This document shows positions 3,451-58,398 of a stretch of DNA of 64,000 nt, one piece after another. A program made the position numbers and the translations under genes. Position 1 is the stretch's first letter; every line of letters begins with the position of its first letter. The notes beneath the pieces are model-generated. The model did no database searches. It was not told where the DNA came from and worked only from the letters and a program-made list of their open reading frames with translations. The stretch comes from Owenia fusiformis (Eukaryota; Annelida; Polychaeta; Sabellida; Oweniidae), in assembly GCA_903813345.2 (NCBI GenBank), contig CAIIXF020000008.1:35612867-35676866 (forward strand). The letters are read 5' to 3'.

Positions 3451-4062
3451 ATGTCTAAGATCGATATTCTTTTAGAACTTGTGCAAGGGAATAGATTTGA
3501 CGAATTGGAAACGTTTTTAGAACAAAACAAAGATGAAATTCATCTTGAAAAAGAGCCACAGGGAAATCCTCCAATGATTTTTAGATGTGTCAAAGAAACT
3601 GAAGTTCAAAACAAATCAGAAATTTCAGAAAGTATATCAGTTAGTGAGAGTCGTAAAAACAGTCAAACAAATGAAAGTCAGACACATATTGCAGATGTTC
3701 ATGTACATAACAATGATACGGTTGACATAGCAACTGATTCAAAAACCATGACGATGACCCATGGTTTGGATAACAAAGGTGTAAACAATTTCAATGGAGG
3801 ATTGATTGATCAGAGTAAATTTCTTCAAACAGTGAAAACTTTAGTGAAATATGGTATGTCACTAGATCGCCAAGATGAAAATGGGAAAACAGCGCTTCAT
3901 TGGGCAGTTTACCATAGAGATGTTCAACTTATTAAAGAATTTATCAAGCTTGGTGCTAGTCCTTTAATAGATGATGGAAAAGGTCAGAATGTGTTGCACT
4001 TTGCCCTTAGAGTTGGAGCCGATGATGTGCTCGAGACCATTATCGAGCATTCCCCAAATGAG
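3451..4062 (+). CDS. Ankyrin gene exon 1
   Basis: Start exon of 204 codons. It begins at the first ATG of the frame (MSKIDILLELVQGNRF) and ends in a strong donor, GAG/GTATGT. The first 130 residues are Ser/Thr/Asn-rich linker. The first ankyrin repeats start at about residue 134 with DENGKTALHWAVYHRD. Ends in phase 0. Confidence 0.85.
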
Positions 4063-37000: not shown

Positions 37001-40000
37001 TATTTGAGAAGGAAATCTAGTCGTTGTTATCGCTCATTGTGTTCACTGGAATTTCAAATTCTCTATTGTTGATCTGATTTGAAATACATGTATTGGGAAG
37101 ACACTGATAATGTTCAAAAGCAGGAACATTTTGTTACTTACCCCATGTTTTTTTTGTTTTCCTTACATGTATTATTCGCTCATCATTAAATTCTTGATAA
37201 CAGAAACAATTTCAAATTCAACCTTTTGCTTGATCTCAAGGTCTTTTTTCCCTATTTTAGTCAAAACATATTGATTTGATGGCAGTCAGTGAAGATAAGT
37301 TTAAGGGAAATGTTTATGCTTTGATATCCTTTCCTTATTTTAAATTGATTTAAATGACAAGAGTTTGTATTTTTGGAAATTTTCTGTTTCTCTTCAGTAG
37401 TATCAGTTTATAAATCATACTAAGCCTCAGACTGAACATTCAAGTGGAAAAGATGTCTCAAATTGCGAAACACATTTGGGTGATTATGGTGTTGATGTTT
37501 GAAGTTTCATCATGTCATGATAAAAACAGAAAAGACCTAATGCAGTATGGAAATGCTGGCAGAGAATGTTGTAGCATATGTAAATGTGAAAATGAATCTG
37601 TTGATTGTGATAAACTAACTAGTCTACCGACAGATTGTCTACCAAATATAAGAAGAATATAAGAATGTGCTAAATGACTATGAGCTAGGAAGGCTCTATG
37701 GACAATTACAAGAGTTGAATATAGGGGATAACAACATTTCTACTTTAGGAAAAAATACTTTTGATGGGCTAAACAATTTAACATGCCTCAGCATGTTTGA
37801 CAATAAGTATTTGGCTGACAAAGTGGATCCTCTAGTATTTAGCCCCCTCTTTAACATAAGAGAGGTGTACGTCTGGGGAAATGGAAATGATGAAAATCTT
37901 TACAGAAACCGCTTTGTGTCAAGAACTTGGATTGATACATTAAAAGGATTGGAAAATTCCTCAATTGAATCGATAGATTTTAGAAATATGGATATGAGTC
38001 CTGTAACTGTGACAAAGAGGGATTTTTGGTACTTGAGAAATTCCCCAATCAAGAGACTTGTGCTTCGTAATTTGGCAATTGTTGAAACGGATATTGAATT
38101 CTTTGAATATATACCAAAGGTTCAAAGTATGGACCTGTCAAGAAATACAATACAAATGACTCTAGACTTCAGAAAGATTTTTCTACTATTTTTTAAACTT
38201 GTACATTTGAAAGAATTTATATTTTCACAAAACAGTAGACAAATGGAGGAAACAGGCTCATCTGAAATCCTTTCAAAAGATACTGCTGAAACTACAATTT
38301 TTTCCTTGCCAAACCTTGTAAGATTTGAATTAGGTGACTCGGTTATTACCAAAAAACCCTACTTTTTAAGCTATGGAGTTAAATTTCATAGAGATAATGC
38401 ATTAAAATATATTTTGATTTCACATGTGAAACTTTTACAACGTTTGGGGCCAGTTATTGGGCTTGTCCATTTGGAGGTCGTTAATTTTAGGGACAATGAC
38501 TGCACTTGGTTCCCTTCAACATTTTCTTGTGCTAATGACGCATTTGAATCTATTGAATATTTGGATATATCCCACAATCAGTTTGAGATTCCCAATGATA
38601 ATATAACAATTGAAATGTTTGATAACTGTTCCAAACTTGAGGAAATAGATCTGTCATATAACAACATGGCTGAAATCCCTTTCACAATGTTTAGAAATTC
38701 TCAAAATTTGAGAAAAATCTATTTGAATGGGAATCAACTACAACAGTTGAACCTGAACCTTGATGCAGCAGAACACTTGGAGTATTTAAACATATCCAAT
38801 AATGAATTCCAGACGTTGCCGAAAGATATTCAAAATCTTGTGGATCATTTGAATCAAATCTCACCATATCAGTTAAAGATTAATTTGGGTGGAAACCCAC
38901 TTATTTGTGGCTGTCATTCATTTGATTTCATTGACTGGATGCAGAGTCACAGTAGAAACATTGACAATTGGGATGAATTGCAATGCACATATTTCAATTA
39001 TTCTGTTGTAAATATGCATGCGATAGACATAGGCATGATGAAGTTATCCTGTTGGAAAACTGTAATACTGGCTGGAACAATTCCGTGTGGGATCTTGCTG
39101 TTGTTTCTTGCTGTGGCTATACTTGCATATAGACGTCGGTATAAACTACATTATTGGTACCTTCAGTTCAGAGCAATAATCAAGCGTAACAATGATGAGG
39201 AGAATGAGTATGACTTTGATGCCTTCATAAGCTACAGCTCTCTCGACAAAACGTGGGGACAGGCAACATTGTATGCTACTCTAGTAGGTATTCACCACTA
39301 CAGCATATGTATCGATGACCGTAACTTCAGACCAGGGGCTTATATCTCAGATATCATCATTGATGCTATCAACAGAAGCAACAAAGTCATTCTGATTATC
39401 ACCCAGAACTTTCTTCGTAGCAAATGGTGCACTTATGAACTCAACATTGCTAGAGGAGAATTATCCAACCGTGGCAGAGATTGTGTCGTCCTTATACTAA
39501 AGGAGCCAATTGATGTACTCCCTAAAGAATTGATCACACTAACACTTCGCTCCCTTTTAGATACTCGTGTATATCTTGAGTGGAGCGAAGATGAAGACAG
39601 GAAGGGTGTGTTTTGGAGAAAGCTTCGAGATGCCCTTGGTGAGCCCAGACCTAGGCAAGAAGAACAAACAAATAGTCCCTACACAATGCCTCAGAATGAG
39701 GAAGATGAACAATTAGTAGAAAACTTTATGAGAGAAAACTCACAACTATTATGAAAAATATTTCACTCCAATTTGACTTCTTGCTGATTTCCTTATTTAA
39801 AAAATGTCAATTCTAGATGACTTGATTATTTGAATTCCTGCATTTATAAATTCTGTACATATCTGTATCTGTTCTGTAAATACATGTATTTACAGGAAGA
39901 ATTGTTTAGCATGAGTATGGTGATAATTAGTTGTGTCAGTTAAAAGCCAAAAACATTGTTCGATTAACTGGAGATTTGACGGTTAACTGGCAGAAAGAAT

Positions 40001-43000
40001 AACTTTAGGATTTCAGAAGGTTTTTGAAAAAATAAAATGGACTCAGCTCTTCATGAAAACAGAACTTTTAGTTTTAACTTAAAGTTTAAGTTTTGAATAG
40101 CAATGCTTTAATTAGCTCATCCTTAGCTTTGGTTCAATGTCTTTTGTCTTTCATTAGAATCTGCTTCAGTTTAATATGTGAAGATTGTACAGTATTATCT
40201 TAGGTAGAAGCTTCATAAAGTTACCATCCTAAAAAGACCACTTATCCCCCATACTCTGTCAATATAATTTTAAATTGATACAGCTTACATTCTTGTTAGG
40301 AATTTAAGAATTGATATACTGTAGATTGGGTTAATTTGGCGCCCGCTTTAATTTGGCGAATTTGGCGAAATTGAAAAATTCGCCAATATAAATCTTCCCC
40401 AAAATTTAAAATGAATCCCTGGGAATTATCTAGAGTATTTCCTTCAGTGTATTTAGGTCACTTCCGGTTTCATAAATTGGCTCAGAACTGGTCAGTCACT
40501 CATTAATATTCAGGGAAAAACTAGAAAGGAAAAGCGTGGTATAGTAGCAGCATCGATCGAGGTGCAAAATGTAAAGGATGATCGCCAGTGGTCCTCAAAA
40601 GAAAAATGGACATAGCCAAACTTATCCATTTACATGGTAATTCGCAAACAGTGGTAAGTTAATTTTCTTGCATATCCGCCAAATTAAATAGCCGCCAATA
40701 TGCCAAAATGGCAAAATCGCCAAATTAAGTAGCGCCAAATTAACCCAATCTACAGTAACTAAAGGAATACATGTAGACAAAATATCAAAGGATTCACTCT
40801 CAAAAATGATAGGAGTAGATAAGGGGCTTGTATGATACCTCAAATGGTACCTTTTGGTTCATGTCATTCTGGGATAAATACTACAGTAGTATGCCATGGT
40901 TATGTGATAGTGATTTGCGTATATAGAGGTAATTATTACTTCTTTTAGACTTAAAATTCTAAGTTTCAATTGAAGTGTGTCTGAAGAGATGTTTTGCCTC
41001 ATGCCTGGCAAAGCCCATATATAGGTTATACCTAAATGTGTGTTAATAAAATGGAATTGCTGGAATTGCATTTTATTGGAGCATTTTGAAAGCTCTTTTC
41101 ATACAATGAGATATTTTAACAATTGCTAGTTCAGAGTCCTACAACTGATAAGTGCATGTGATTAGTATTTTTAGATAAAAAAATGTAACAGTCGGCAATT
41201 TGAGAAGGAAAGGATTGGTATCGATATGGAGAACTGAATTCAACAATGTTTTTCTCTTAAACCAATCATTGAAAACATTCTGTAAAAAGACACAGTATTT
41301 TATGTAATGTTGACTGATTGACAACAATTTAATGCGAAAATTATTTAGAAACATTTTATATAACTGTTTTTGTTATCATTTTTTGTTTTTTAGTGCAATT
41401 GTTCTTGCTCCTTTCTACCAATTCTTGAGAATGAAATAAAATGTCTTTCCGAACCTCTTTGGAACAAAATAGCATGTACAAAATGTTTTTAGACCTAGCA
41501 ATATTATAGTTATACAAAGGAATCTTTGGTTGATTTTAAAAAAGTATTCAAAAAATTAAAACAAAATCCCCCCAAAATAGATAAAAATCAAGATAAACCT
41601 TTTATTTCATTAACAAGATACTTTTTTAAAATCAACCAAAATTTCCTTTGTACAATTACAATATCGAGGGACCTAAACATGTTATGTTTATTTCATTTTG
41701 TTCCAATGAGGTTTCGGAAAGATGTTTCATTTCCCTCTGGAAACATGATACCAAGAACAAAACAAGTGTTTGATGTGTTTTTTAAAACAATATAGATGAA
41801 AGTATATATATTTCAAATTATATTGTTACCATTCAAAAGATGACCATTAAATTGACGATGTGTTAAATATTTAGATTTTTTATGACTGGTTTAAGAGAAA
41901 TGTGTGTTCAAATAGTTCTCCATATCGATACCACTCCTTTAATTATTGTTATCGCACATTTTGTTCACTGGAATTAAATTTCAAATTCTCTATTGTTGAT
42001 CTGATTTGAAATATATGTTTTTGGAAGTCACTGCTGACATTAATTCAATGCAGGAAATTTTTGCTTCTTACCCCATTTTTATGTCTTCCTTATTATTGAA
42101 TTGATATTAACCTCTAGATTGCAAAATTCAAAATTCAATTCAGGAAATATGTATTGCTTTCCTGTCTCAAACTCTTTCTTCCTTGCATTTGTCAAACCAT
42201 TAATTTGATGTAGAGTTCTTAAAGGTAATAATTTTTTATTATGTTTAAATATCTCTTCCTTATTATAAATTGATATAAATGAGAGAGTCGTCAAAATTTG
42301 TATTTTAGGATATTTTCTGTTCTCTTCAGTACTATGAGTTTATGAACCATACTAGCCTTAGAATGTACATTAAAGCTTGGAAGATGTCTCTAATAACTTA
42401 TCACATATGGGTGATGATGGCTTTAATGTTTGATTTTTCATCAAGTCATGATAAAAATGGGAGAGACCTTATATACCATGGAAATGCTAGCAGAGAATGT
42501 TGTAGAATATGTAAATGTGAAAAGGAATCTGTTGATTGTGAAATTGACCTAATTAGCCTACCAAAAGATTGTCCACCAAATATAACAAAACTGAACCTAA
42601 GTTCATGTAACCTGAATATGCTAAAGGACTATGAACTAGGAAGACATTATGGACAATTACAATGGTTGGATATTGGAGATAACAACATTTCTTCTTTACG
42701 AAATCATACATTTGCTGGACTAAATAATTTAAGATTCCTCAGCATGATTTACAATAAGTATTTAGCAGACAGAGTGGATCCTCTAGTATTTAGCCCCCTC
42801 CTTAACATCAGAGAGATATATGTCTGGGGAAATGGAAACGATAAAAATCTTTACAGAAATCGATTTGTGTCAAAAACTTGGATTGATACATTCAAAGGAT
42901 TGGAAAATTCCACAATTGAATTAATAGACTTTAGAAATATGGATATGAGTCCTGTAATTGCCAGAAAAATGGACTTTTGGTACTTGAGAAATAGTCCAAT

Positions 43001-46000
43001 CAAGTACCTTGTGCTGCGTAATATGGCAATCGTTGACATGAATTATGAATTCTTTGAATATATACCAAGGGTTGAAACTATTGACCTGTCAAGAAATACA
43101 ATACAAATGACTTTAGAGTTAAGAAATGTATTAATACAATTTTTTAAACTCATATATTTGAAAGAATTTATATTTTCACATAACAGTGGCCAAATGGAAG
43201 AAGCAGGCTCATCTGAAATCCTTTCAAAATATACTGCTGAAACTATAATTTTTTCATTACCTTATTTTATACGATTTGAAGTAGATGACTCGATTATTGC
43301 CAAGGAACCCTACTTTTTAAGCTTTGGAGTTAAATTTCAGAGAGATAATGCATTGACATATTTTTCATTTTCAGATATGAAACTTGTACAACGTTTAGGA
43401 CCAGTTATTGGGCTTGTTAATTTGGAGGTGTTTAAATTTAGTCACAATAAATGTACTTGGTTCCCTTCCACAATTTCTTGTTCAAATGGCGCATTTGAAT
43501 CTTTGAAAACATTGGATATATCCCACAATCACTTTGAGATTCCTAATGACAATATCTCGGTTGAAATGTTTGATAACTGTTCCAAACTTGAGGAAATAGA
43601 TCTGTCATATAACAACATGGCTCAAATGCCTTTCACAATGTTTAGACATTCAGAAAATTTGAGAAAAATCTATTTGAATGGGAATCAACTACAACAGCTG
43701 AACCTGAACCTTGATGCAGCAAAACACTTGGAGTATTTAAACATATCCAATAATGAATTGCAGACTTTGCCGAAATATATTCAAAATCTTGTGGATCGTT
43801 TGAATCAAATCTCACCATATCAGTTAAAGATTAACTTGGTCGGGAACCCACTTATCTGTAGCTGTCATTCATTTGATTTCATCGATTGGATGCAGAGCCA
43901 CAGTAGAAACATTGAGAATTGGGATGAATTACAATGTACATATTTCAATTATTCTATTGTAAATATGCATGCGATAGACATAGGCATGATGAAATTGTCC
44001 TGTTGGAAAACTGTAATACTGGCTGGAACAATTCCGTGTGGGATCTTGCTGTTGTTTCTTGCTGTGGTGATACTTGCGTATAGACGTAGGTACAAACTAC
44101 ATTACTGGTACCTTCAGTTCAGAGCAATAATCAAGCGTAACAATGATGAGGAGAATGATTATGACTTTGATGCCTTCATAAGCTACAGTTCTCTCGACAA
44201 AACGTGGGGACAGGCAACATTGTATGCTACTCTAGTAGGTATTCACCACTACAGCATATGTATCGATGACCGTAACTTCAGACTAGGGGCTTATATCTCA
44301 GATATCATCATTGATGCTATCAACAGAAGCAACAAAGTCATTCTGATTATAACCCAGAACTTTCTTCGTAGCAAATGGTGCACTTATGAACTCAACATTG
44401 CTAGAGGAGAATTATCCAATCGTGGCAGAGATTGTATCGTCCTTATACTAAAGGAGCCAATTGATGTACTCCCTAAAGAATTGATCACACCAACACTTCG
44501 CTCCCTTTTAGATACTCGTGTATATCTTGAGTGGAGCGAAGATGAAGACAGGAAGGGTGTGTTTTGGAGAAAGCTTCGAGATGCCCTTGGTGAGCCCAGA
44601 CCTAGGCAAGAAGAACAAACAAATAGTCCCTACACAATGCCTCAGAATGAGGAAGATGAACAATTAGTAGAAAACTTTATGAGAGAAAACTCACAACTAT
44701 TATGAAAAATATTTCTCTCCAATTTGACTTCTTGCTGATTTCCTTATTTAAAAATGTCAATTCTCGATGACTTATTATTTGAATTCCTGCATTTATAAAA
44801 TTCTGTACATATCTGTATCTGTTCTATATTTAGATGTATTTACAGGAAGAATCATTCAGCATGGTGATAATTAGTTGTGTCAGTTAAAAGCCAAAAACAT
44901 TGTTCAATTAACTGGACAGTTAACTGGCAGAAAGAATTACTTGAGGATTTCGGAAGGTTTTCGAAAAAATAAATAAAAAACAGACTCAGCTCTTTATAAA
45001 TTAAACAGAACTTTTAGTCTTAACTTAAGCTTTAAGTTTTAAAATAGCAATGCTTTAATTAGCTCATCCTTAAAGAGAGAATCAGAGATAGCGAGCAGCC
45101 TAACAAAAAATTGTTTCGATTTTAGAATATATCTGGCTCATGTCATTCCTTTTCATGTCTATTTTCTATAAATCCCCAAAGTGCACACTTTATTTCAGGA
45201 AAACTAAAGATTTTTGCAATAATGTGTTATTTTTCTATAAGAATGGTTACCATTCTTATTATTTGGGAGAATTAAAAAATTTTCACCTATTTTTGCACCT
45301 TGATCCATTATAACTTCACCAATTAGTAATATATAGAAGATCTTTTGGGAGATATTGTATTTGAGATTGTACGGAATAGATTAGTAGGTCAATTGGACAT
45401 GTTGTTTGTAATTTTGTCACCCCCATAGATATGATTCTGCCTTTAACTTTGGTTCAATATCTTTTGTCTTTCATAAGAATCTTGTGAGGAATTTAAAAAT
45501 TGATATAACTAAAGGAATACATGTAGACAAAATATCAAAAGATTCTCTCAAAAATGATAGGAGTAGATAAGGGGCTTGTATGATACCTCAAATGATACCT
45601 TTTGGTACAATATGGTTCAATGGGATAAGTACTACAGTAGTATGCCATGGTAACATGATAGTGATGTGCGTATATAGAGCATTTAGTTCATACATTATGT
45701 AATTCATGAATGATTAGTATAGATGGAGTGAATATATTGTTTATTTGAACCACAATTGGTTGTCCTCATATATGTATACCATTCTTGACTTTTATAGAAT
45801 CAACATTTTTAAACCCCCTAGTAATTTCCACCTTGAATTGTAAGATGATGAATACACTGGAACAGAGCAGGATCTCACTTTCAATGTATGCTTATTGAGT
45901 GTATTGCATCAATTCTTTGATGCTGTGTCATCCATGGGCTTTCAACTAGACTCTCAAGCCCATGGTCACAAAATAAACGGCAATGAGAGTTGTTGAGAAG

Positions 46001-52000: not shown

Positions 52001-54178
52001 GCATTGTACCATGTAGCCTTGCCCAAGTTGGTAATTTTTACTTATCTGATCTTGAATTATTGTCATAATAGAAATCAAGATATTAAAGTAAAAGAGACCG
52101 ACTTGGGCAAGGCTATGTACCATGGGCTTTCTAGAGATATCTTGAAAGCCTATAATATGCACTTATTTCAAACATTCCGATATGAAATTGCTTATTTATA
52201 AGCATTAAAATTCATCTTTGAAAGCATGACTGTTCTCATGTCTTACTATAATGCATGCACATGTACTAAATCGCAAAACGATTTTGATGGAAGAAGTTTG
52301 TGCAAAGATGAATAATATATAGATCAATGTACAAACTTATGATCAAATTATTCTGCAAGTAAATAACATTATTTTTATGAAAAATTTTGCAGGTTTTTAG
52401 TTCAAATCAAATTCTTTTTGCATGACTTCAAAACTTCATTGAATGTGCTGTGAATGTGCTGATCCTCATTAACCCATGTACTTATTATTAGAGGGAGAAA
52501 TAACTTACCACCTCACCATGGTATTGTGGTAAGGTATTTTCCCATCACTATTACTACATGTACTAAAGCACTGCATGTTTTGGCATTGGGTCCCTAACTC
52601 CTTAGTTAAGTTCTATCCAAATGATTTTTCTAGATGAACACAATCACAGACGATCAAAAACCGACCCTAGTTCTAAAATTAACAGTAGTAGTAGTACCCA
52701 TTTACCAAAGATAGAGGACTCTGATCGTCCGCACACGTCACGGCGAAACAAGACGTACAGTGATGGGCGGCCAATGACTGCAAGCTCGAGCAGTTCAGAA
52801 GGGAATGTCTCTGCAGCTCAGATGAGGCAGCACACGGGTGTTAAGGTCCGACCGCAGTCTCGTCAACCACTTTTAGGTAAATTCATGAAGCTTTCTGTTT
52901 GCAAAGCTTAGTTGCTCTTGAAAAATTTGGAACATTCAAGTATTATTGCATTTTTATTTCTGAAATAAGCAAAAACATCTTCTATGGATATCAGGGCCGT
53001 AGCCAGGGGGGTTCGCAGGGTTTGGTGAACCCCCTCCCTCCTGGTCAAAATATATTTCAAAATCATGCAGTTTTCACCATTTTGAGCACTTCTCAAGTGA
53101 TTTTAGCCATATTTGGGTCAAAATTGTCAACACCCCCTGAAAATTTTGAAAACTGAATCCCCCTTGGCAAATCCTGGTTACGGGCCTGGATATTTAAAGG
53201 ACAACTGAAATAGCTTTTCTCAACTTGCAGCTACAAAAATTCGGTTTTCTCTATTGTAAGCCTACTGTAGAGTTCTTGCGATAGCCATTATAAAATAAAT
53301 GTTAGATAACTGCTAACGGTCATAGATAACGAAATAAAACTAACTGATAAATCAAATTGGCCCCCACGTGATTAGTAACGTCATATACAAATTATAGCTT
53401 TGGTTTATTGGTTCCATAGTAATCACAACGTCACGGCAACCATATGATTGTTGTGTAAACAAATAACAAAACATTTTGGCATTATGACGTCGTGATCTAA
53501 TGGACCAAAACGGTCCACGTGGGGGCCAGTGAGAGATCACGTGGGGGCCAATAACGTCACAACCAATTCGAATATTGCTTATTAAGCAGCTATAACGATC
53601 GTTAGAGTGAAATAGTTTTCACACTACTGATTAGAAAACATGTCCAAATACATCTATCAAAAAATTATATTGATTCCTTTAGGTTAAAAATACCATTTCA
53701 TATCTGCTTTAAATAGATCATTATTGAGTTGGTTTTAAAAACTTCTAAAAGCTGAAATATACTTGTATTACTTATGAATATGCATATTATAATACCAATG
53801 TAAGTATGTGTGCTATAAACTAGATTATCATAAATTCAGTTCCACCTTTATTTGGTGATTGCTTGTTAATTCAGACTGAAAATGATATTATTTGATCCTT
53901 TGTTTTTAATTAATTTCCCAAAAATTTCTTGGTCATCAATGGGCTTTCTATTGAATGCCCATGTCAATACCAACCAATATAAAAAAGCTAGATATAACTG
54001 AAGTAAACATATGTTGTGCCAAATTGTTCCAATCAACAGTAGGTAAAAATGATTTTAATTCACATTTTCAGATCAACGACAAAAGACAGACCTCCAGTTC
54101 CTTGATCCTAAAGCTTATAGAGAAAAGAAAAAGGAAGAACGGAAACTGTTGAAAAGTAGTAGTCCAAGATCCGGTTGA
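3451..54178 (+). CDS. Inversin-like ankyrin-repeat / IQ-motif / coiled-coil protein (18-exon gene)
   Basis: The exons are 3451-4062, 10436-10626, 21564-21777, 24789-25050, 25375-25608, 26740-26814, 27306-27504, 28498-28631, 29153-29331, 30061-30700, 34749-34822, 35220-35240, 36402-36515, 47196-47291, 48386-48412, 49526-49802, 52634-52876 and 54072-54178. Every junction is AG/GT and all phases agree. The total is 3699 nt, or 1232 residues. Residues 1-130 are polar and probably flexible. About fourteen ankyrin repeats follow (roughly 134-730; motifs such as GKTALHWAV, GATPLMIAC, DGLNALHCAASRGH, DGRTCLHLAA). Next come an IQ motif near 738-750 (ASKIQRQFRK), a strongly acidic Glu-rich stretch (about 751-830), a basic helical region, charged coiled coil around 984-1060, a Ser-rich linker and a Lys-rich end. 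The order ANK then IQ then coiled tail resembles inversin/nephrocystin-2 and other ciliary ankyrin proteins, so a calmodulin-binding scaffold of cilium or centrosome is plausible. I cannot assign an orthologue. Three Toll-like receptor copies lie in introns 2 and 13. Confidence 0.85.
7150..7400. repeat. Degenerate GAAAACAACAGGCAAAAT repeats
   Basis: Six or more imperfect copies of an 18-24-base unit containing GAAAACAACAGGCAAAAT, separated by variable spacers. Low-complexity intronic repeat without coding potential. Confidence 0.75.
7430..7666. mobile_element. Inverted-repeat element (CAGTTGGGGAC ends), TA-flanked
   Basis: The ends CAGTTGGGGACAAAAATAAA and its near-exact inverse TTTATTTATGTCCCCAACTG enclose 237 bases. 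TA lies directly on both sides (7428-7429 and 7667-7668). About 28 bases of the terminal repeat match with one difference. Ends starting CAGT with a TA duplication are typical of Tc1/mariner/pogo-type non-autonomous elements. No transposase is encoded. Confidence 0.8.
7757..7946. mobile_element. TGATCTCCCC-ended short element, copy A
   Basis: Ends TGATCTCCCCAGG and GCTGGGGAGATAAC form an inverted repeat of about 12 bases. The interior carries GGGTGCAAA and CAATTCAGAATTGGTCAAAATATGC-like text, which recurs in opposite orientation at 31331-31531. Two diverged copies in one window mark a dispersed non-autonomous element. Confidence 0.65.
8245..8535. repeat. 97-bp tandem repeat, three units
   Basis: Three consecutive units starting CTAACTTGTCTCC at 8258, 8355 and 8452 give a 97-base period. 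Each holds GACAACCATGTTGCATCTGG and CACACATATATTA. The units are almost identical, so the duplication is recent. The open frame through it is a by-product. Confidence 0.9.
8834..9519. mobile_element. GC-rich CGGCCG-laden inverted-repeat element
   Basis: The outer ends TAATGGCCTAGTCACATAGC and GCTATGTGACTAGGCCATTA are perfect inverse copies, and the match runs on through CCGGCCGATG for about 30 bases. The 686-base body is conspicuously GC-rich in an AT-rich intron and is packed with CGGCC, CCGGCCGG and GAGCTCGG words on both strands. Open frames inside it are repeat-driven and show no protein family. It behaves like a MITE of unknown superfamily; TA or TWA flanks are compatible with the sequence. 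Confidence 0.85.
9620..9700. repeat. Dispersed repeat with AAAAGAGAGCTTCGTC
   Basis: The text from ACCCTTTGCATTCG to CTTAAAAGAGAGCTTCGTC recurs at about 17090-17140 and in part at 47850-47870. It is a diverged dispersed repeat of unknown type. Confidence 0.5.
10436..10626 (+). CDS. Ankyrin gene exon 2
   Basis: Acceptor TTGTTTTCAG and donor AAA/GTAAGT bound 191 nt. It encodes ILDNQNKNGSQPLIYAVQLG and one further ankyrin repeat (HRTPIQYALYNKRLDIFSLL). Enters in phase 0 and leaves two bases of a Lys codon completed by exon 3. Confidence 0.85.
12426..14751 (-). pseudogene. Toll-like receptor copy 1 (frameshifted)
   Basis: Read on the minus strand from ATG at 14749-14751. It has a signal peptide (VVKHILMIMMLMFEFLL), an N-terminal Cys cluster (CCSICECKNTSVVC), leucine-rich repeats, a C-terminal LRR cap (NPLICSCHSFDFIDWM), one membrane span (VILAGTIPCGILLLFLGVAI) and a TIR domain with YDFDAFISYSSLDK, DDRNFRPGAY and FWRKLRDAL. 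Single-exon coding region. Compared with copy 3, four extra bases sit within 13671-13677 in the LRR region. They shift the frame, so the first frame stops at about 13633 and the LRRCT-TM-TIR half continues in another frame from 13727. The TIR half keeps the BB-loop Pro and is otherwise undamaged. This may be a recent pseudogene, a polymorphic indel or an assembly error. It lies antisense within intron 2 of the ankyrin gene. Confidence 0.85.
15065..15175 (-). promoter_or_regulatory. Upstream block shared by the TLR copies (copy 1)
   Basis: About 310-420 bases upstream of the copy 1 ATG, the minus strand reads GCAGGAAAC, CTTACCCCATGTTTTTTG and TCTTCCTTAC. It matches the corresponding positions upstream of copies 2 and 3. 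Conservation across three paralogues, one of them distant and inverted, suggests promoter or first-exon sequence. The function is inferred. Confidence 0.45.
15350..15480. repeat. Degenerate TTGG/CTGG simple repeat
   Basis: A run of GGTTGG, GGCTGG and GTTTG words (such as GGTCAGTTGGCTGGTTGGTT) forms a degenerate tetranucleotide repeat. No coding content. Confidence 0.7.
15521..16113. repeat. 90-bp satellite, about 6.5 units
   Basis: Units starting AAGAATGGGATTAAG recur at 15521, 15611, 15701, 15791 and 15881, an exact 90-base period. Each unit holds GTGTAATATGCAAAG, AAATAAACCCAGTATCACTT and CAGTTCCTTTGCTTTTACA. Near 15975 one unit is truncated by internal deletion, then the array resumes to 16113. 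Confidence 0.95.
17690..17945. repeat. Pentanucleotide microsatellites (ACAAT)n and (CATAC)n
   Basis: Uninterrupted runs of ACAAT and CATAC alternate with AT-rich spacers. The minus-strand open frame through it is low-complexity and not a gene. Confidence 0.95.
18425..18700. repeat. Degenerate (AGTGT/AGTAT)n microsatellite
   Basis: Starts as clean GTAGTGTAGTGTAG and decays into TATAGTATAGTTGAAGTGAAG-like text over about 280 bases. Confidence 0.85.
18908..19122. mobile_element. CAGGCCCGTA-ended MITE, copy A
   Basis: Ends CAGGCCCGTACCTAGG and CCTGGCTATGGGCCTG are inverse copies with few differences. The interior is a near-palindrome with CCAAGGGGG and CCAGGGGGG runs. The second copy at 52992-53188 is in the opposite orientation and shares TTTTGAAATAATTTT-type and AAGTGCTCA text. 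Flanks TTGGT and TCGGT suggest a 5-base target duplication with one change. Confidence 0.8.
19503..19862. repeat. 179-bp tandem duplication
   Basis: The text starting AGCTTTTATGGTCTTTGGAG at 19503 recurs at 19682 with only a few changes and covers AATATATCACCCATAAGCTT at the end of each unit. Two units, 179 bases apart. Confidence 0.9.
20531..20626. mobile_element. Short CTAGCCAAGCTACAAG hairpin element
   Basis: CTAGCCAAGCTACAAGACC on the left and its imperfect inverse GGGGCTTGTAGCTAAACTAG on the right enclose about 96 bases, including a run of G. A half copy lies near 1612-1650. Probably a very short MITE. Confidence 0.55.
21564..21777 (+). CDS. Ankyrin gene exon 3
   Basis: Acceptor TTTATTTTCAG and donor AAG/GTAAAG bound 214 nt. 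The first base completes a Lys codon. It encodes YKARVDLLDCKEKCV, a non-canonical linker and the repeat NDEGATPLMIACQGGNVDQV. Leaves phase 0. Confidence 0.85.
21801..22027. mobile_element. GACGTAACCAGG-ended element
   Basis: GACGTAACCAGGGG on the left matches the inverse of CTGGCTACGCCCATGG on the right. A G-homopolymer follows the left end. It resembles the CAGGCCCGTA family in its CGTAGCCAG core and is probably a diverged relative. Confidence 0.5.
22316..22726. mobile_element. Harbinger-like MITE with TTA target duplication
   Basis: Terminal inverted repeats start GGGGAGGCATCAAAAGTTCG and continue through ATGTCGGAT and ACTAAATAAATCTAGTT; the right end is the near-perfect inverse, about 55 bases in all. 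TTA lies directly outside both ends. A three-base TWA duplication with G-rich ends is characteristic of PIF/Harbinger elements. The interior has G runs and no transposase. Confidence 0.85.
23847..24029. mobile_element. CAGTAAAACCTGT MITE, copy A
   Basis: Left end CAGTAAAACCTGTTTATCTG and right end CAGATAAGACAGGCTTCACTG are inverse copies. TA flanks both ends. The interior contains GTGAACA and CTGAACA words. A relative with the same ends lies at 55203-55380. CAGT ends and TA duplications point to Tc1/mariner/pogo-derived elements. Confidence 0.8.
24789..25050 (+). CDS. Ankyrin gene exon 4
   Basis: Acceptor TTATTTCCAG and donor ACAG/GTATGA bound 262 nt. It encodes ankyrin repeats with STGKTCLHYCVENKD, EEGYNAAHMCVIAGN and EQHTAVHWAT. 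Ends with one base of a split Val codon. Confidence 0.88.
25375..25608 (+). CDS. Ankyrin gene exon 5
   Basis: Acceptor TTCATTTCAG and donor GCTG/GTACGT bound 234 nt. It encodes VCGQEEIIDILCEYDAELSK, HAYPLHYAAQMCG with an acidic insertion, and RQPLLWAASAG. It keeps phase 1 on both sides. Confidence 0.88.
25609..26739. other. Intron 5 of the ankyrin gene
   Basis: A 1.1-kb intron with no repeat family or gene that I can recognise; AT-rich throughout. Confidence 0.7.
26740..26814 (+). CDS. Ankyrin gene exon 6
   Basis: A 75-nt exon between TTTGCAG and AATG/GTAAAC encoding SGDACAALVDSGADVNAADK, the second half of one ankyrin repeat. Phase 1 on both sides, so skipping would keep the frame. Confidence 0.85.
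27306..27504 (+). CDS. Ankyrin gene exon 7
   Basis: Acceptor TTCTTATTTTAG and donor GCAG/GTATGT bound 199 nt. It encodes ALHCAASRGHTACVEALV, KNGCTSLFYAITMDHLETAK and ASPNHRDKKGR, two classical ankyrin repeats. Its last 25 bases and the donor are duplicated 132 bases downstream in the intron. Confidence 0.88.
27523..28091. mobile_element. CGAAATT-rich inverted-repeat element with captured exon end
   Basis: Left CTGTTCTCCCGGTATTCGCG and right GCGAAATTGACTGGGAGCACAG are imperfect inverse copies. The ends are full of TTCGCG and GCGAAATT words. Inside, at about 27613-27665, lies a near copy of the 3' end of exon 7, its donor and the element start (TCATCAGGATAAGAAAGGAC), which indicates a local tandem duplication 132 bases apart. 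Confidence 0.65.
28498..28631 (+). CDS. Ankyrin gene exon 8
   Basis: Acceptor CTTCCATTTCAG and donor AAAG/GTACAC bound 134 nt. It encodes SPAHCAASKGNQSGISLI and KGELPLHEASQAGHK, continuing the ankyrin array. Enters with two donated bases and leaves one. Confidence 0.87.
28650..28830 (-). mobile_element. tRNA-derived SINE-like sequence
   Basis: On the minus strand, TATAGCTCAGTTGGTGGAGC (A-box-like) is followed by GGTTTGATTCCCACACGGGG (B-box-like) in tRNA order. The anticodon arm and variable region are too short for a working tRNA. The tail continues into AT-rich sequence with CACACTTTC. This layout is typical of the head of a tRNA-derived SINE. It lies about 20 bases downstream of exon 8. 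Confidence 0.65.
29153..29331 (+). CDS. Ankyrin gene exon 9
   Basis: Acceptor GCCTTTTTCAG and donor AAG/GTAAGA bound 179 nt. It encodes ALVTQIMSDEKQREKM, then SDGRTCLHLAAMTNNLELCK and NGANVNALMFYK. Leaves phase 0. Confidence 0.87.
29495..29905. repeat. 114-bp tandem repeat, about 3.6 units
   Basis: CAGGGT in the unit start recurs at 29505, 29619, 29733 and 29847, a constant 114-base period. Units contain CCTGTTTTTACCTAATTTGG, CACCTTTTGGCAGGGTGCAA and GACATCAGGTTGCACATTAT. Near identity suggests recent expansion in intron 9. Confidence 0.93.
30061..30700 (+). CDS. Ankyrin gene exon 10 (last repeat, IQ motif, acidic region)
   Basis: Acceptor GCATTTTTCAG and donor CTAG/GTCAGT bound 640 nt. It encodes the final ankyrin repeat (TPYDTAVVKGHKECAEYL), an IQ motif (ASKIQRQFRKNQKK), a Glu/Asp-rich stretch of roughly 80 residues, a basic segment (RQKKKRTKSG) and a helical segment (IYEQTRSTIQSLQRLKRMQI). 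The IQ motif predicts calmodulin or myosin-light-chain binding. The donor is weak, but the phase with exon 11 fits. Confidence 0.85.
31331..31531. mobile_element. TGATCTCCCC-ended short element, copy B
   Basis: Begins GTGATCTCCCCGGCA and ends TCCTGAGATCGCTGA. The interior (AAGCAAGTGGG, TTTTGACCAATTTTGG) is the diverged inverse of 7757-7946. Confidence 0.6.
32210..32960. repeat. Probable old dispersed repeat with GTCCCACCGAACGAGG
   Basis: Starts with GTCCCACCGAACGAGG and TCTATCCGTCC and ends near GGATGGATGGATCGACGGAG. Internally, GGCCACCATTTT-like and AACTCAAATACCAGT words recur several times. No protein frame survives. Assignment to a repeat class would need a library comparison. Confidence 0.45.
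34749..34822 (+). CDS. Ankyrin gene exon 11
   Basis: Acceptor TTTCTGTTGCAG and donor AAG/GTATGT bound 74 nt encoding DQISFLTKVSHSDHPEFRS and KAMAK. The frame agrees with both neighbours. Confidence 0.75.
35220..35240 (+). CDS. Ankyrin gene microexon 12 (21 nt, probable)
   Basis: TTTTCTTTCTAG precedes and GTAACC follows GAAGACACTATTGTTGAAGA plus one G, seven codons (EDTIVEE), phase 0 on both sides. Composition fits the acidic neighbourhood of the protein. Skipping leaves the frame intact, so it could be an alternative exon. Only RNA evidence can confirm it. Confidence 0.5.
35269..35428. mobile_element. CGGCACCGAAAC-type foldback element
   Basis: The left arm TTCGACGCCGTTTCGGCATC and the right arm GGCACCGAAACGGCGTCGAA are inverse copies. 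Within both arms a 12-base word CGGCACCGAAAC (or its inverse) is repeated several times, with a single-copy centre GCTACTGGACTAGTCAGTCC. The 160-base sequence would form a long, CpG-rich hairpin only 28 bases after the 21-nt exon donor. Confidence 0.8.
36402..36515 (+). CDS. Ankyrin gene exon 13 (probable)
   Basis: Acceptor CTTATTTTTAG and donor AAG/GTAGCT bound 114 nt, open in the required phase and encoding a basic, Arg/Ser-rich linker (GRRNHCRHSRTGSATTARRG then VGKAPGNVDPEGDAK). No domain. Divisible by three, so it is potentially skippable. Confidence 0.6.
37065..37175 (+). promoter_or_regulatory. Upstream block shared by the TLR copies (copy 2)
   Basis: Contains GTTGATCTGATTTGAAATAC, ACACTGATAATGTTCAAAAG, CTTACCCCATGTTTTTTTTG and TTTTCCTTACATG, matching the blocks upstream of copies 1 and 3 at similar distance from the ATG. 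A conserved CTCTTCAG near 37391-37398, followed by AGTATCAGTTTAT, also recurs before copies 1 and 3. It could be the acceptor of a 5' untranslated exon. Confidence 0.45.
37453..39754 (+). pseudogene. Toll-like receptor copy 2 (N-terminal deletion and stop)
   Basis: The start aligned with the other copies is ATG 37453 (MSQIAKHIWVIMVLMFEVSS, signal peptide). An in-frame ATG lies at 37444. After the Cys cluster (CCSICKCENESVDC) the frame ends at TAA 37660-37662. Compared with copy 3, a net 17 bases are missing around 37645-37670, which removes part of the first LRR and shifts the frame. From 37667 a 695-residue frame continues without a break: LRRs, LRRCT (NPLICGCHSFDFIDWM), membrane span (VILAGTIPCGILLLFLAVAI) and TIR (YDFDAFISYSSLDK, DDRNFRPGAY with BB-loop Pro, FWRKLRDAL). 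Unless another start or splice supplies a signal peptide, the product would not reach the membrane properly. Lies in the same orientation as its host gene. Confidence 0.85.
40319..40755. mobile_element. CTGTAGATTGGG MITE with TA duplication and paralogous empty site
   Basis: Ends CTGTAGATTGGGTTAATTTG and CAAATTAACCCAATCTACAG are perfect inverse copies; TTTGGCG words are abundant just inside. TA flanks both sides. The paralogous sequence near 45502-45512 reads TTGATATAACTAAAGG with no insertion and a single TA, which fixes the 437-base boundaries exactly. No coding capacity. Confidence 0.93.
41209..41940. mobile_element. Foldback element of about 730 bp upstream of TLR copy 3
   Basis: The left arm starting AAAGGATTGGTATCGATATG and the right arm ending ATATCGATACCACTCCTTT are inverse copies. 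Similarity continues almost to the centre: ATTTTAAAAAAGTATTC pairs with ATACTTTTTTAAAATC, and TGTCTTTCCGAACCTC with GAGGTTTCGGAAAGATG. The element is therefore nearly one long hairpin with arms of about 350 bases. The copy 2 unit lacks it at the matching place (about 36998-37025). Short open frames inside have no protein character. Confidence 0.88.
41985..42100 (+). promoter_or_regulatory. Upstream block shared by the TLR copies (copy 3)
   Basis: GTTGATCTGATTTGAAATAT, TGCAGGAAAT, CTTACCCCATTTTTATG and TCTTCCTTATT match the copy 1 and copy 2 blocks, about 290-400 bases before the aligned ATG. CTCTTCAG followed by TACTATGAGTTTAT at about 42322-42343 repeats the possible 5' acceptor. Confidence 0.45.
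42342..44705 (+). CDS. Toll-like receptor copy 3 (intact, BB-loop Leu)
   Basis: A membrane pattern-recognition receptor of the LRR-TIR type; 787 residues from ATG 42342, or 773 from ATG 42384, which matches the start of the other copies and begins a signal peptide (MSLITYHIWVMMALMFDFSS). Domains from the first ATG: Cys cluster at 53-66 (CCRICKCEKESVDC), LRRs about 75-500 (e.g. LEYLNISNNELQTLPKYI), LRRCT about 502-556 with a single C-terminal Cys cluster, membrane span about 557-580, TIR about 607-749 and an acidic tail ending ENSQLL. The TIR has box 1 FDAFISYS and box 3 FWRKLRDAL. The BB loop reads RNFRLGAY: residue 648 is Leu (CTA at 44283-44285), where both sister copies have Pro. In TLR4 a change at the equivalent Pro blocks signalling. 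Single coding exon, lying within intron 13 of the ankyrin gene. Likely signals through MyD88-type adaptors if functional. Confidence 0.92.
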   Translation: MNHTSLRMYIKAWKMSLITYHIWVMMALMFDFSSSHDKNGRDLIYHGNASRECCRICKCEKESVDCEIDLISLPKDCPPNITKLNLSSCNLNMLKDYELGRHYGQLQWLDIGDNNISSLRNHTFAGLNNLRFLSMIYNKYLADRVDPLVFSPLLNIREIYVWGNGNDKNLYRNRFVSKTWIDTFKGLENSTIELIDFRNMDMSPVIARKMDFWYLRNSPIKYLVLRNMAIVDMNYEFFEYIPRVETIDLSRNTIQMTLELRNVLIQFFKLIYLKEFIFSHNSGQMEEAGSSEILSKYTAETIIFSLPYFIRFEVDDSIIAKEPYFLSFGVKFQRDNALTYFSFSDMKLVQRLGPVIGLVNLEVFKFSHNKCTWFPSTISCSNGAFESLKTLDISHNHFEIPNDNISVEMFDNCSKLEEIDLSYNNMAQMPFTMFRHSENLRKIYLNGNQLQQLNLNLDAAKHLEYLNISNNELQTLPKYIQNLVDRLNQISPYQLKINLVGNPLICSCHSFDFIDWMQSHSRNIENWDELQCTYFNYSIVNMHAIDIGMMKLSCWKTVILAGTIPCGILLLFLAVVILAYRRRYKLHYWYLQFRAIIKRNNDEENDYDFDAFISYSSLDKTWGQATLYATLVGIHHYSICIDDRNFRLGAYISDIIIDAINRSNKVILIITQNFLRSKWCTYELNIARGELSNRGRDCIVLILKEPIDVLPKELITPTLRSLLDTRVYLEWSEDEDRKGVFWRKLRDALGEPRPRQEEQTNSPYTMPQNEEDEQLVENFMRENSQLL
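45072..45444. mobile_element. AAAGAGAGAATCA MITE in the copy 3 unit
   Basis: Left end AAAGAGAGAATCAGAGATAG and right end CTATGGG-side ATATGATTCTGCCTTT form an imperfect inverted repeat of about 22 bases. The copy 2 unit reads CATCCTTAGCTTTGG uninterrupted (near 40119-40133). The copy 3 unit reads CATCCTTAAAG, then the insertion, then CTTTAACTTTGG, indicating a TTA or TTAA target duplication. No coding capacity. Confidence 0.85.
47196..47291 (+). CDS. Ankyrin gene exon 14 (coiled coil)
   Basis: Acceptor TGTTTTTCTATAG and donor CAG/GTCTGA bound 96 nt, phase 0. It encodes EHKKALEMDCVDTRYRMK and EADRMCLEFKLEQ, a charged helix with heptad-like spacing. The donor is weak, but frame, length and composition fit exon 16, which continues with EREEEERKRAEQEFEDHQQR. 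Confidence 0.65.
47292..48385. other. Intron 14 of the ankyrin gene
   Basis: Apart from the minisatellite at 47390-47600, AT-rich sequence with a piece of the AAAAGAGAGCTTCGTC dispersed repeat at about 47850; no gene seen. Confidence 0.6.
47390..47600. repeat. 31-bp minisatellite (TGATTGAATTGAATTTGTAA)
   Basis: About six units of 31-37 bases containing GATTGAATTGAATTTGTAAT and CAACATTGAG or CAACATAGAG, directly after exon 14. Confidence 0.9.
48386..48412 (+). CDS. Ankyrin gene microexon 15 (27 nt, probable)
   Basis: CAATTTTCAG precedes and a perfect GTAAGT donor follows 27 bases encoding DDDSNVTGS, phase 0 on both sides. Skipping preserves the frame. The splice sites are the strongest evidence; the short length leaves doubt. 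Confidence 0.55.
48413..49525. other. Intron 15 of the ankyrin gene
   Basis: A 1.1-kb AT-rich intron; no repeat family or gene recognised. Confidence 0.65.
49526..49802 (+). CDS. Ankyrin gene exon 16 (coiled coil)
   Basis: Acceptor CTAATTTACAG and donor AAGA/GTAAGT bound 277 nt. It encodes EREEEERKRAEQEFEDHQQR, then basic helical sequence to AYCPGEPTEVLDDIFK. The frame is set by phase 0 entry; the overlapping frame starting at 49410 is not used. It leaves one base that pairs with either of two downstream acceptors. Confidence 0.85.
50015..50301 (+). CDS. Ankyrin gene alternative last exon (short form)
   Basis: Acceptor TTTATCTTTCAG after a pyrimidine tract, 287 nt to TGA at 50299-50301. Joined to exon 16 it encodes a basic, Pro/Ser/His-rich tail (SGQPLLRCSLDSAISHIS, KPHPPITKHDKKLPPIKINK, RPLNPYRCLPKITKSHES), giving a 1211-residue product. 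The codons stay open only in the phase delivered by exon 16, which supports it as real. Alternatively it is an internal exon with an unrecognised donor. Confidence 0.65.
51000..51540. repeat. Degenerate CCAATCAGAT repeat array
   Basis: About ten imperfect units of 45-60 bases built on TTAGCCAATCAGATGTCATG and TCTCATTATGG with heavy divergence. Old minisatellite-like array without coding content. Confidence 0.8.
52006..52120. mobile_element. Short hairpin element
   Basis: GTACCATGTAGCCTTGCCCA on the left is the imperfect inverse of TGGGCAAGGCTATGTACC on the right, and the match extends to TTTTTACTT and AAGTAAAAG. About 115 bases able to fold back; possibly a very short MITE. Confidence 0.6.
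52634..52876 (+). CDS. Ankyrin gene exon 17 (Ser-rich linker, long form)
   Basis: Acceptor GATTTTTCTAG and donor TTAG/GTAAAT bound 243 nt. It encodes EHNHRRSKTDPSSKINSSSS, HLPKIEDSDRPHTSRRNKTY and MRQHTGVKVRPQSRQPLL. Base composition is richer in G+C than its intron. Phase 1 on both sides. Confidence 0.8.
52992..53188. mobile_element. CAGGCCCGTA-ended MITE, copy B
   Basis: Ends CAGGGCCGTAGCCAGG and CCTGGTTACGGGCCTG are imperfect inverse copies. The interior matches the inverse of 18908-19122 (TGCAGTTTTCACCATTTTGA). GGATAT before and GATAT after suggest a 5-6-base target duplication. Confidence 0.8.
53193..53713. mobile_element. TTTAAAG-ended CACGTG-rich MITE, copy A
   Basis: About 520 bases from TTTAAAGGACAACTGAAATA to CATTTCATATCTGCTTTAAA, an imperfect 20-base inverted repeat. 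The interior contains GGCCCCCACGTGAT, GTCCACGTGGGGGCC and several AACGTCA words. A copy in the opposite orientation lies at 62896-63397. It starts four bases after the end of the neighbouring MITE. Confidence 0.85.
54072..54178 (+). CDS. Ankyrin gene exon 18 (last exon, long form)
   Basis: Acceptor CACATTTTCAG, then 107 nt encoding DQRQKTDLQFLDPKAYREKK and KEERKLLKSSSPRSG, stop TGA 54176-54178. The phase closes exactly with exon 17. Confidence 0.85.
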
Positions 54179-56587: not shown

Positions 56588-58398
56588 ATGGAACAAAATT
56601 ATTGCATGTATTTTGTCATAATGGCTTTGTTGTCAGGTAAGTCACTTCAGTAAATAAGCGAAATAAGAATACAAAAAATCTCAGAAATTGCCTCAATTTT
56701 AGAATGTGTTTTACTTGTGCGTGTCGTTCCCTCCATGCCTATTTTGAAATTAAAATGTTTCATTTTTAAATGATGGTCAATCATTTGAATTATTTAAATT
56801 TTTATTTTGAAGAAACTACACATTTTTGCGCGTGGAGACTTCAATATTTTCACCATTCGATAACAAATGCAATTCTAAATGTAAAGAGTATAGACTTTCA
56901 ATACTAGACCTTTCCAATAAGCTATAACCGTTGAGTTATGACGTGCAATTAAAACCCCAGAGGTGCAATTTTTTACTTGCTTTTAACTTTGTAAACTTTT
57001 ATTCTTATTTGTTTTGTTATATTTTGTTCTTTGTTTATTATGTGTATAAATGTTGTATATGTTTTGGTTATTGTTGTATTGTTTGATTGATTTATGTTTA
57101 CATGTTTAATCCATTTTATTATGGGAGTAAAAGCGACATAATAATAATAAACACTATATAGATGATCGTAATTATCTACTGTAGGCTTGATATCAAGTCA
57201 AACGTGTAACAACGCCCTGTGTAAGAGACGAGACATTGCAGGATTGAAAGTTGAAATAACTGATAAAATGAATGTTATGGAAAGTGAACTCGAAGATAAA
57301 ATATCTGAAGTCAGAGCTGAAGTTCGAAAAATGTCCTCTGATATATCTGGAGTAAAAGATGAAGTTGTTAAACTCTCTGATGAAATATCCAAGTTAGGGT
57401 CGAACATGAAAAAACATGTTCCAGAGGATGATAGGTCCACGTTTGAGTCTAAAGTAATGGATCGTTTAGCTCAAATGGATAGCAAACTAAATATGATGAC
57501 TGGTAAGTAAAAATTTCAATGCTTGAGTGTACTTTTTAAAAATATAGTATCAATATTAGATATTTACAATTTTCTTTGAGCAGCAAAAGGCTAAATCCCT
57601 TGAAACATGCATGCATTCTTAATTGTTCACCATTTCAGTTATTTCCATGAAGGAAGTGAGCCCCAGTGGCGCAATTTATTCAAGTCAAAAATTAAAATGC
57701 ATCCCTTTAAATGCTGCATTCGACATATTATTCCCATGGACAACATGTATTTTACAGTAACTTTACCAAATAAGGATTGTCGTCTAGCCAAGGATGGAAC
57801 AAGTACAATACTGACAAGATCTGGGAAACATGTTACAGCTAACTGTGATGATGGGTGGTTGGTTATTGCACACCGATTCAATGGCAAAGAGATATTCCAT
57901 AATCGAACATGGAATGAATACAAAAATGGATTTGGGTCGCCGCGAGGGGAATACTTCCTTGGGTTTGATGCTATCTTAATGATTCTTAGGCGAGGAAAAT
58001 ACAAAATGAGATTTGACCTTGTTGGATGGGACAATAAACATGCGATTGCGGAGTACTCTACCTTCAGTATTGGGGAAGAAAGTGAAGATTATCCAATAAC
58101 CGTGGATGGGTTTTCTTCTACAGGAGCTAGTACTCGTATTTTCTACGACTCTATGAGAAGGCATAATCACAGACCATTTTCAACAATAGATAGAGACAAT
58201 GAGGGGCGTTATAACTGCCCTACGATTATCAGAGGTGCCTGGTGGTATTATGGTTGTGCCGACTCTAATCTGTTCTCAGTTTACCCCAATGGTCCAAAGT
58301 GTGATGGAAACTACAACAATGCATGTATGGTTTGGGCCAACTTTCCAGGTTCTGTATACCTGAAAGAAATGAAAATGAAAATCAAACCAGCACCATAA
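56588..58398 (+). CDS. Secreted coiled-coil fibrinogen-domain protein (FREP/ficolin-like)
   Basis: Exons: 56588-56636 (MEQNYCMYFVIMALLSG, signal peptide), 57185-57502 and about 57653-58398. The second exon begins with a Cys pair region (QTCNNALCKRRD) and then a coiled coil of about 80 residues (MESELEDKISEVRAEVRKMS), which would trimerise the chain. The third holds a fibrinogen C-terminal-like domain: CDDGWLVIAHRFNG, WNEYKNGFGSPRGEYFLGFD, YNCPTIIRGAWWYYGC and FPGSVYLKEMKMKIKP. Such proteins act in invertebrate immunity as soluble lectins. Odd: the strong acceptor at 57638 gives the wrong phase and meets a stop at 57761, whereas an acceptor at AAG/GAAGTG (57653) restores the frame (370 residues). 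The N-terminal part of the domain is poorly conserved, so a missed small exon, a frameshift or a polymorphism is possible. Confidence 0.75.
57185..57502 (+). CDS. Fibrinogen-domain gene exon 2 (coiled coil)
   Basis: Acceptor ATCTACTGTAG and donor GACTG/GTAAGT bound 318 nt, phase 1 on both sides. Heptad pattern throughout, with Lys/Glu/Asp and hydrophobic a/d positions (VVKLSDEISKLGSNMKKHV). Confidence 0.8.
57653..58398 (+). CDS. Fibrinogen-domain gene exon 3
   Basis: Open from before 57607 to TAA 58396-58398. The 5' boundary is uncertain: 57653 fits the phase and 57639 has the better splice signal. The C-terminal half is unmistakably fibrinogen-like, with the disulfide pair around NCPTIIRGAWWYYGC. 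Confidence 0.75.

Follow-up and report, generated by a model that had tools for sequence, protein, structure and literature searches.

Our results suggest that the leucine found in place of the BB-loop proline in the one intact Toll-like receptor gene of a small cluster in Owenia fusiformis is probably a recent missense variant, private or polymorphic and neutral to hypomorphic in effect, rather than the sign of a dedicated decoy. We favor this reading because the proline is also missing from other long receptor genes of this genome. The cluster lies in the window, the whole stretch of 64,000 nucleotides that was analyzed (C8:35612867-35676866, in a 498-Mb genome assembled into 525 contigs, of which C1 to C12 are each 32 to 62 Mb long), and its three members are here called copies 1, 2, and 3. 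An annelid origin is suggested by three matches, weak though above cutoff, to a family of annelid erythrocruorin linkers. Codon 648 of copy 3, which by sequence and by alignment to TLR2 corresponds to the BB-loop (Box 2) proline, is CTA (44283 to 44285, + strand) in the context RNFRLGAY, while the codons homologous to it by alignment are CCA in copy 2 (39332 to 39334, + strand) and in copy 1 (12846 to 12848, - strand). An earlier sequence-only reading of this DNA had reported the same difference, and the codons at all three loci bear it out exactly.

Copy 3 is an intact LRR-TIR open reading frame of 787 amino acids (42342 to 44705, + strand), taken from the list of open reading frames and supported by Pfam matches above cutoff to LRR_8, LRR_4, TIR, and TIR_2. 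It has the LRR ectodomain of a Toll-like receptor (LRR_8 at 91.9 bits and LRR_4 at 58.3 bits) and a TLR-type TIR domain (TIR at 49.5 bits, against a cutoff of 21.3, and a match to TLR2 with an E value of 7e-28); this domain spans 44151 to 44618 (+ strand) according to Pfam, the TLR1 and TLR2 matches, an AF2 model, and fold matches in the PDB. The translation contains one hydrophobic stretch before YRRRYK and a second one after Met15, which is probably the true start (at 42384), as the starts of the other copies align there; Leu648 would then be residue 634.

The Box 2 sequence of copy 3, RNFRLG, can be compared with the pattern R-D-F-x-x-G that a survey of TIR domains gives for its group 3 (2,763 Toll/TLR TIRs), a pattern with no residue at the proline position, and with the motif RDxxPG, which the discussion of the same survey describes as present in that group (PMC7075850). 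The Arg, Phe, and Gly are all present in copy 3, and Asn stands for Asp, as it does in nearly all members of its clade. The proline before the glycine of the classical RDxxPG motif is Leu648 in copy 3, and the glycine itself is unchanged. As the group 3 pattern leaves this position unspecified, we would not treat the proline as defining Toll/TLR proteins.

Leu648 aligns in register with Pro681 of human TLR2 (1fyw) and also with the mutant residue, His681, in the structure of TLR2 P681H (1fyx). Copy 3 thus carries a substitution at the BB-loop proline as in the Lps-d allele of mouse TLR4, which upholds the equivalence of the two sites claimed by the sequence-only reading. An AF2 model of the copy 3 TIR, whose confidence is low (a mean pLDDT of 65.8) and which served only to place this residue, puts residue 648 in the loop that connects strand B to helix B, and its fold matches, at the same pLDDT, are the TIRs of TLR1 and TLR2.

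The other two members of the cluster are broken, as seen from the list of open reading frames and from alignment. Copy 1 (12426 to 14751, - strand) is split by a frameshift into open reading frames at 13633 to 14751 and 12426 to 13727, with a 4-nucleotide insertion relative to copy 3 near 13674 to 13677. Copy 2 (37453 to 39754, + strand) runs for 69 codons and then meets an in-frame TAA at 37660 to 37662, just after a 17-nucleotide deletion relative to copy 3 near 37659; its open frame resumes, without the N terminus, at 37667 to 39754. Both are otherwise open, and we infer that they either died recently or are null alleles. Homopolymer errors of the assembly were considered for both frameshifts and rejected, the lesions being 4 and 17 nucleotides long. 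The idea that a proline allele of copy 3 might be present in another copy or haplotig was likewise rejected, in that the nearest matches are the other two window copies: these are 90% and 86% identical to copy 3 and the next matches are at most 75% identical, although withheld or missing stretches of the assembly could hide a closer one. The TIRs of the proline and leucine copies of the cluster are 98% identical.

Several other features of the window may be recorded here. Copy 2 has a CCA-to-CTA, Pro-to-Leu change of its own in the TIR, at 39539 to 39541, where copy 3 (44490 to 44492) keeps CCA, as does copy 1. Copy 1 lies antisense between ankyrin-repeat open reading frames on the + strand at 3451 to 4113 and 28870 to 29376 and is possibly inside an intron of a single ankyrin-repeat gene. 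Further downstream, a fibrinogen C-terminal domain is encoded at 57607 to 58398 (+ strand; Fibrinogen_C, E value of 1e-39), and two inverted repeat pairs, 53193 to 53470 with 63121 to 63398 (93%) and 53512 to 53690 with 62920 to 63098 (96%), possibly mark a mobile element.

The age of the leucine codon can be judged from the divergence between copies 2 and 3, for which dS falls from 0.264 in the N-terminal ectodomain to 0.029 in the TIR and 0 in the tail, with differences at 50 of 223 synonymous sites in the ectodomain versus 3 of 122 in the TIR and tail (Fisher P = 9e-8). At the start of the 3' flank these two copies are 96% identical, and the flank of copy 1, at 48%, is unalignable. The low dS of the TIR together with the similarity of the flank points to gene conversion between copies 2 and 3, over a tract that, from dS and a map of differences, takes in the TIR, the tail, and the start of the 3' flank (approximately 44106 to 44850, + strand, on the copy 3 side). 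The dS between copies 1 and 2 is also lower in the TIR (0.21 versus 0.42 in the ectodomain, P = 0.009), so that a regional effect or an older conversion may account for part of the drop. Codon 648, which falls within this tract and is not a CpG site, changed after the conversion, and the change is therefore a young one.

The few substitutions on the copy 3 branch give some indication of how this gene has been evolving. Polarized with copy 1, its TIR has had five codon changes since the conversion, three nonsynonymous and two synonymous, a V-to-I change among the former being polarized by amino acid only, as each of the three copies has a different codon there. Compared with 5 to 20 between copies 1 and 2 (Fisher P = 0.10), this ratio is suggestive only of relaxed constraint. 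On the ectodomain branches we counted 31 nonsynonymous to 20 synonymous changes for copy 3 (P = 0.003 against the neutral site ratio), which indicates constraint, and 33 to 16 for copy 2 (P = 0.044), which indicates it weakly; these counts cover 42384 to 43650 with 53 ambiguous codons dropped, and the neutral ratio, in which transition bias is ignored, comes from 42384 to 43455. The constraint on the ectodomain branch led us to reject the possibility that copy 3 is an old pseudogene.

In a quick tree of 98 TIRs, built with the BB-loop column left out, rooted at the midpoint, and containing many long branches, the three window copies group together within a clade of 34 rows (29 loci and the three copies) that keeps the proline except in copy 3 and in the broken locus L025, which has Ala. 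Lineage-specific expansions of TLRs in trochozoans have already been described (PMC8609888). Copy 3 had been called the only intact copy; this holds within the cluster and fails genome-wide, where 18 other members of the clade have open reading frames of at least 645 amino acids. All 18, none of which has a stop in the aligned TIR, have the proline, as do the members left out of this count, for example, copy 2 (653 amino acids, broken upstream), L016 (a stop in the aligned TIR), L009 (578 amino acids), and L001 (573 amino acids).

When 23 of the 29 clade loci were aligned with the window copies, 61 TIR columns proved to be invariant in those 23; copies 1 and 2 break none of them and copy 3 breaks one, the proline. 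The conservation in 18 of 18 members makes the site look constrained in this clade, where the change from Pro to Leu may be a true loss of function, and, as this is also the sole invariant column that copy 3 breaks, some functional effect of Leu648 is plausible. Private breaks of otherwise invariant columns occur, however, in 10 of the 26 aligned members, with 15 breaks in total (4 of them in the fragmentary L007), and with that many breaks the chance of some member hitting one given column is about 0.22. The evidence from the clade thus argues both ways: the proline appears to be constrained, yet one private break would not mark out a special receptor. Another such case is L019 (C10:30324950-30327700), a clade receptor of 776 amino acids with Trp changed to Leu in the FW pair of Box 3, a Trp otherwise invariant in the 26 aligned members.

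Our searches of the genome for TIRs gave at least 123 family matches and at least 120 protein matches (the best 150 of 152 and the best 150 of 155 candidates, respectively), numbers that are lower bounds for a possibly incomplete repertoire. To cover these matches, 125 loci were fetched, the cover being checked by eye, and were aligned with the three window copies. The alignment has 135 rows, which are not equivalent to genes (L007 accounts for three); 6 have no residue at the BB-loop column, and among the 129 that do, L110 duplicates L025, leaving 128 distinct rows. Proline is found in 88 of them and another residue in 40 (V 11, A 8, T 5, L 4, G 3, S 3, M 2, H 2, I 1, and F 1), some of the 40 being poor alignments of Box 2. 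Within the strict context [RK][DN][FW]-x-x-G there are 80 rows, 52 with Pro and 28 without (V 10, A 8, G 3, L 2, M 2, H 2, and I 1). Changes between Pro and non-Pro number about 12 on the quick tree, and at least 8 by well-supported branches, both being approximate in view of the long branches.

Seventeen non-Pro loci were refetched with longer flanks, 16 of them chosen for long frames and 1 for its Leu. The 16 have open reading frames of at least 630 amino acids, which, as they were chosen for length, is not a rate. The other, L141 (RDFTLGQ), has an open reading frame of 187 amino acids with a TIR only, and among 10 of the 17 loci scanned with Pfam, it alone had just a TIR, the other nine having both LRRs and a TIR. 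The existence of these long LRR and TIR frames led us to reject the view that loss of the proline is by itself the sign of a broken receptor gene. Two adjacent LRR-TIR frames, L139 (C1:37973500-37976500, at least 765 amino acids) and L140 (C1:37977000-37979900, at least 779 amino acids), have a natural His (KDFVHG) at the proline position, the residue of Lps-d; aligned to solved structures, the His of L139 is in register with the Pro of TLR1 and TLR6. Drosophila Toll has Val at this position.

These data bear on the claim of the sequence-only reading that the locus may have no normally signaling receptor left. The survey of paralogues that it had proposed has now been carried out, with Pro in 18 of 18 other long-frame clade members and 40 of 128 rows genome-wide without it. 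The step from the missing proline to the missing signal finds no support in a genome with these 40 rows, which include at least 16 long open-frame receptors and a whole sister clade. The same reading had named close functional homologues with a natural Leu as evidence against itself; in the strict context, Leu occurs in copy 3 and at one other locus, L141, which is not a close homologue.

Under the reading that we prefer, copy 3 is a Toll-like receptor in a small cluster evolving by duplication, breakage, and gene conversion (birth and death). Most likely its protein can still fold and be delivered to the membrane, and Leu648 is a recent variant, possibly still polymorphic. Any loss of signaling would likely come about through a weakened TIR dimer or adaptor contact. 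Leu648 could reduce coupling, although lack of the proline alone would not predict a dead receptor.

A broader reading, which we hold only tentatively, is that this lineage couples TLRs to its adaptor in a manner independent of the BB-loop proline and that the leucine of copy 3 is the youngest step in this direction; it draws on the 28 of 80 strict rows without Pro, the roughly 12 changes of state, and the two His receptors. If this is true, the leucine of copy 3 would have been caught just after gene conversion. While Leu648 by itself is most likely an ordinary recent variant, the Pro-free loops in about one-third of the strict Box 2 rows, including the two His receptors, appear to be the more interesting lead. 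Long open-frame receptors of this genome offer a natural series at the position (Pro, Val, Ala, Gly, Met, His, and, in copy 3, Leu), and natural pairs, of which the Pro and Leu copies of the cluster are one, could serve to test the need for the proline.

A role as a decoy and the use of another adaptor, both raised by the sequence-only reading, are no more than possible. A decoy, in which Leu648 blocks the recruitment of adaptors as in Lps-d and copy 3 still binds ligand or partners and acts as a dominant negative, seems unlikely to us. The BB-loop proline has been called invariant in MyD88-dependent TLRs (PMC10161769), mouse TLR4 P712H leads to LPS hyporesponsiveness whereas MyD88 P200H is reported to retain NF-κB activation (PMC3594740), TLR2 P681H is reported not to recruit MyD88 (PMC3634009), and proline mutants are described as able to act as dominant negatives (PMC1945083); the position of Leu648 is that of TLR2 P681H and, by published register, of TLR4 P712H (PMC3594740), and Pro is kept in 18 of 18 other long-frame clade members. 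The known blocking change is to His, however, and the hydrophobic Ala is partly active: TLR2 P681A is reported to respond normally to a TLR2/6 agonist at high dose, with TLR2/1 and TLR2/2 responses largely suppressed (PMC3634009). The sister-clade receptors with Met or Gly also have long LRR and TIR open frames, and the change in copy 3 is so young that selection for a role as decoy could not yet show.

More doubtful still is the idea that coupling to the adaptor has been retuned or switched, in the manner of TLR3, which has a natural Ala for the proline and still signals and in which mutation of this Ala to Pro is described as switching the adaptor (PMC10161769). This Ala is Ala795, and the A795H mutant is reported to cluster normally on RNA, its defect being placed in the contact with intracellular signaling proteins (PMC9653405). 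Pro-free BB loops are common in the genome and clustered on the tree, which favors such a switch, but adaptors of the TRIF type are described from jawed vertebrates only (PMC7075850). The change in copy 3 is, moreover, one recent substitution, and no other change accompanies it that would suggest a new interface. That CTA is an error of sequencing or assembly, or an uncommon allele that the sequenced animal happened to carry in a species that usually has CCA, is similarly improbable: codon 648 is known from one haplotype, in which fixed, polymorphic, and erroneous states look alike, and the two broken copies are the closest that the assembly yielded (withheld or missing stretches could hide a closer one), but an isolated C-to-T change in nonrepetitive coding sequence is atypical of long-read errors.

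The ordinary recent variant that we favor may be set beside known systems, for which our literature searches found no P681L, P714L, or P712L with a Toll-like receptor, nothing on Owenia TLRs, and nothing on RDWLVG. Mouse TLR4 P712H (Lps-d) and human TLR2 P681H affect the same BB-loop position as Leu648 (TLR4 register as given in PMC3594740) and, like the change in copy 3, are single missense changes in otherwise intact receptors. They differ in that both introduce His and their loss of signaling was measured, whereas the leucine of copy 3 is known from sequence alone and, being hydrophobic, is closer to Ala, Val, or Met than to His. Vertebrate TLR3 resembles copy 3 in that, by published account, it naturally lacks the Box 2 proline (PMC10161769); its Ala is the normal state and couples to TRIF, whereas the change in copy 3 appears to be recent and private.

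The closest comparison is found in the same genome, in the neighboring clade of L030 to L033 (SH-aLRT of 99; L126 to L129 in their longer versions), which is split from the clade of copy 3 with a support of 81 and whose status as sister is approximate, as it rests on the midpoint root. The TIRs of its members are 47 to 50% identical to that of copy 3, and they too lack Pro, in a loop of the type RNFLxG, with open frames of their own of 630 to 833 amino acids, with LRRs and a TIR in all three that were scanned. All four of them have Met or Gly at the proline position, which suggests an older loss, in contrast to the young Leu of copy 3.
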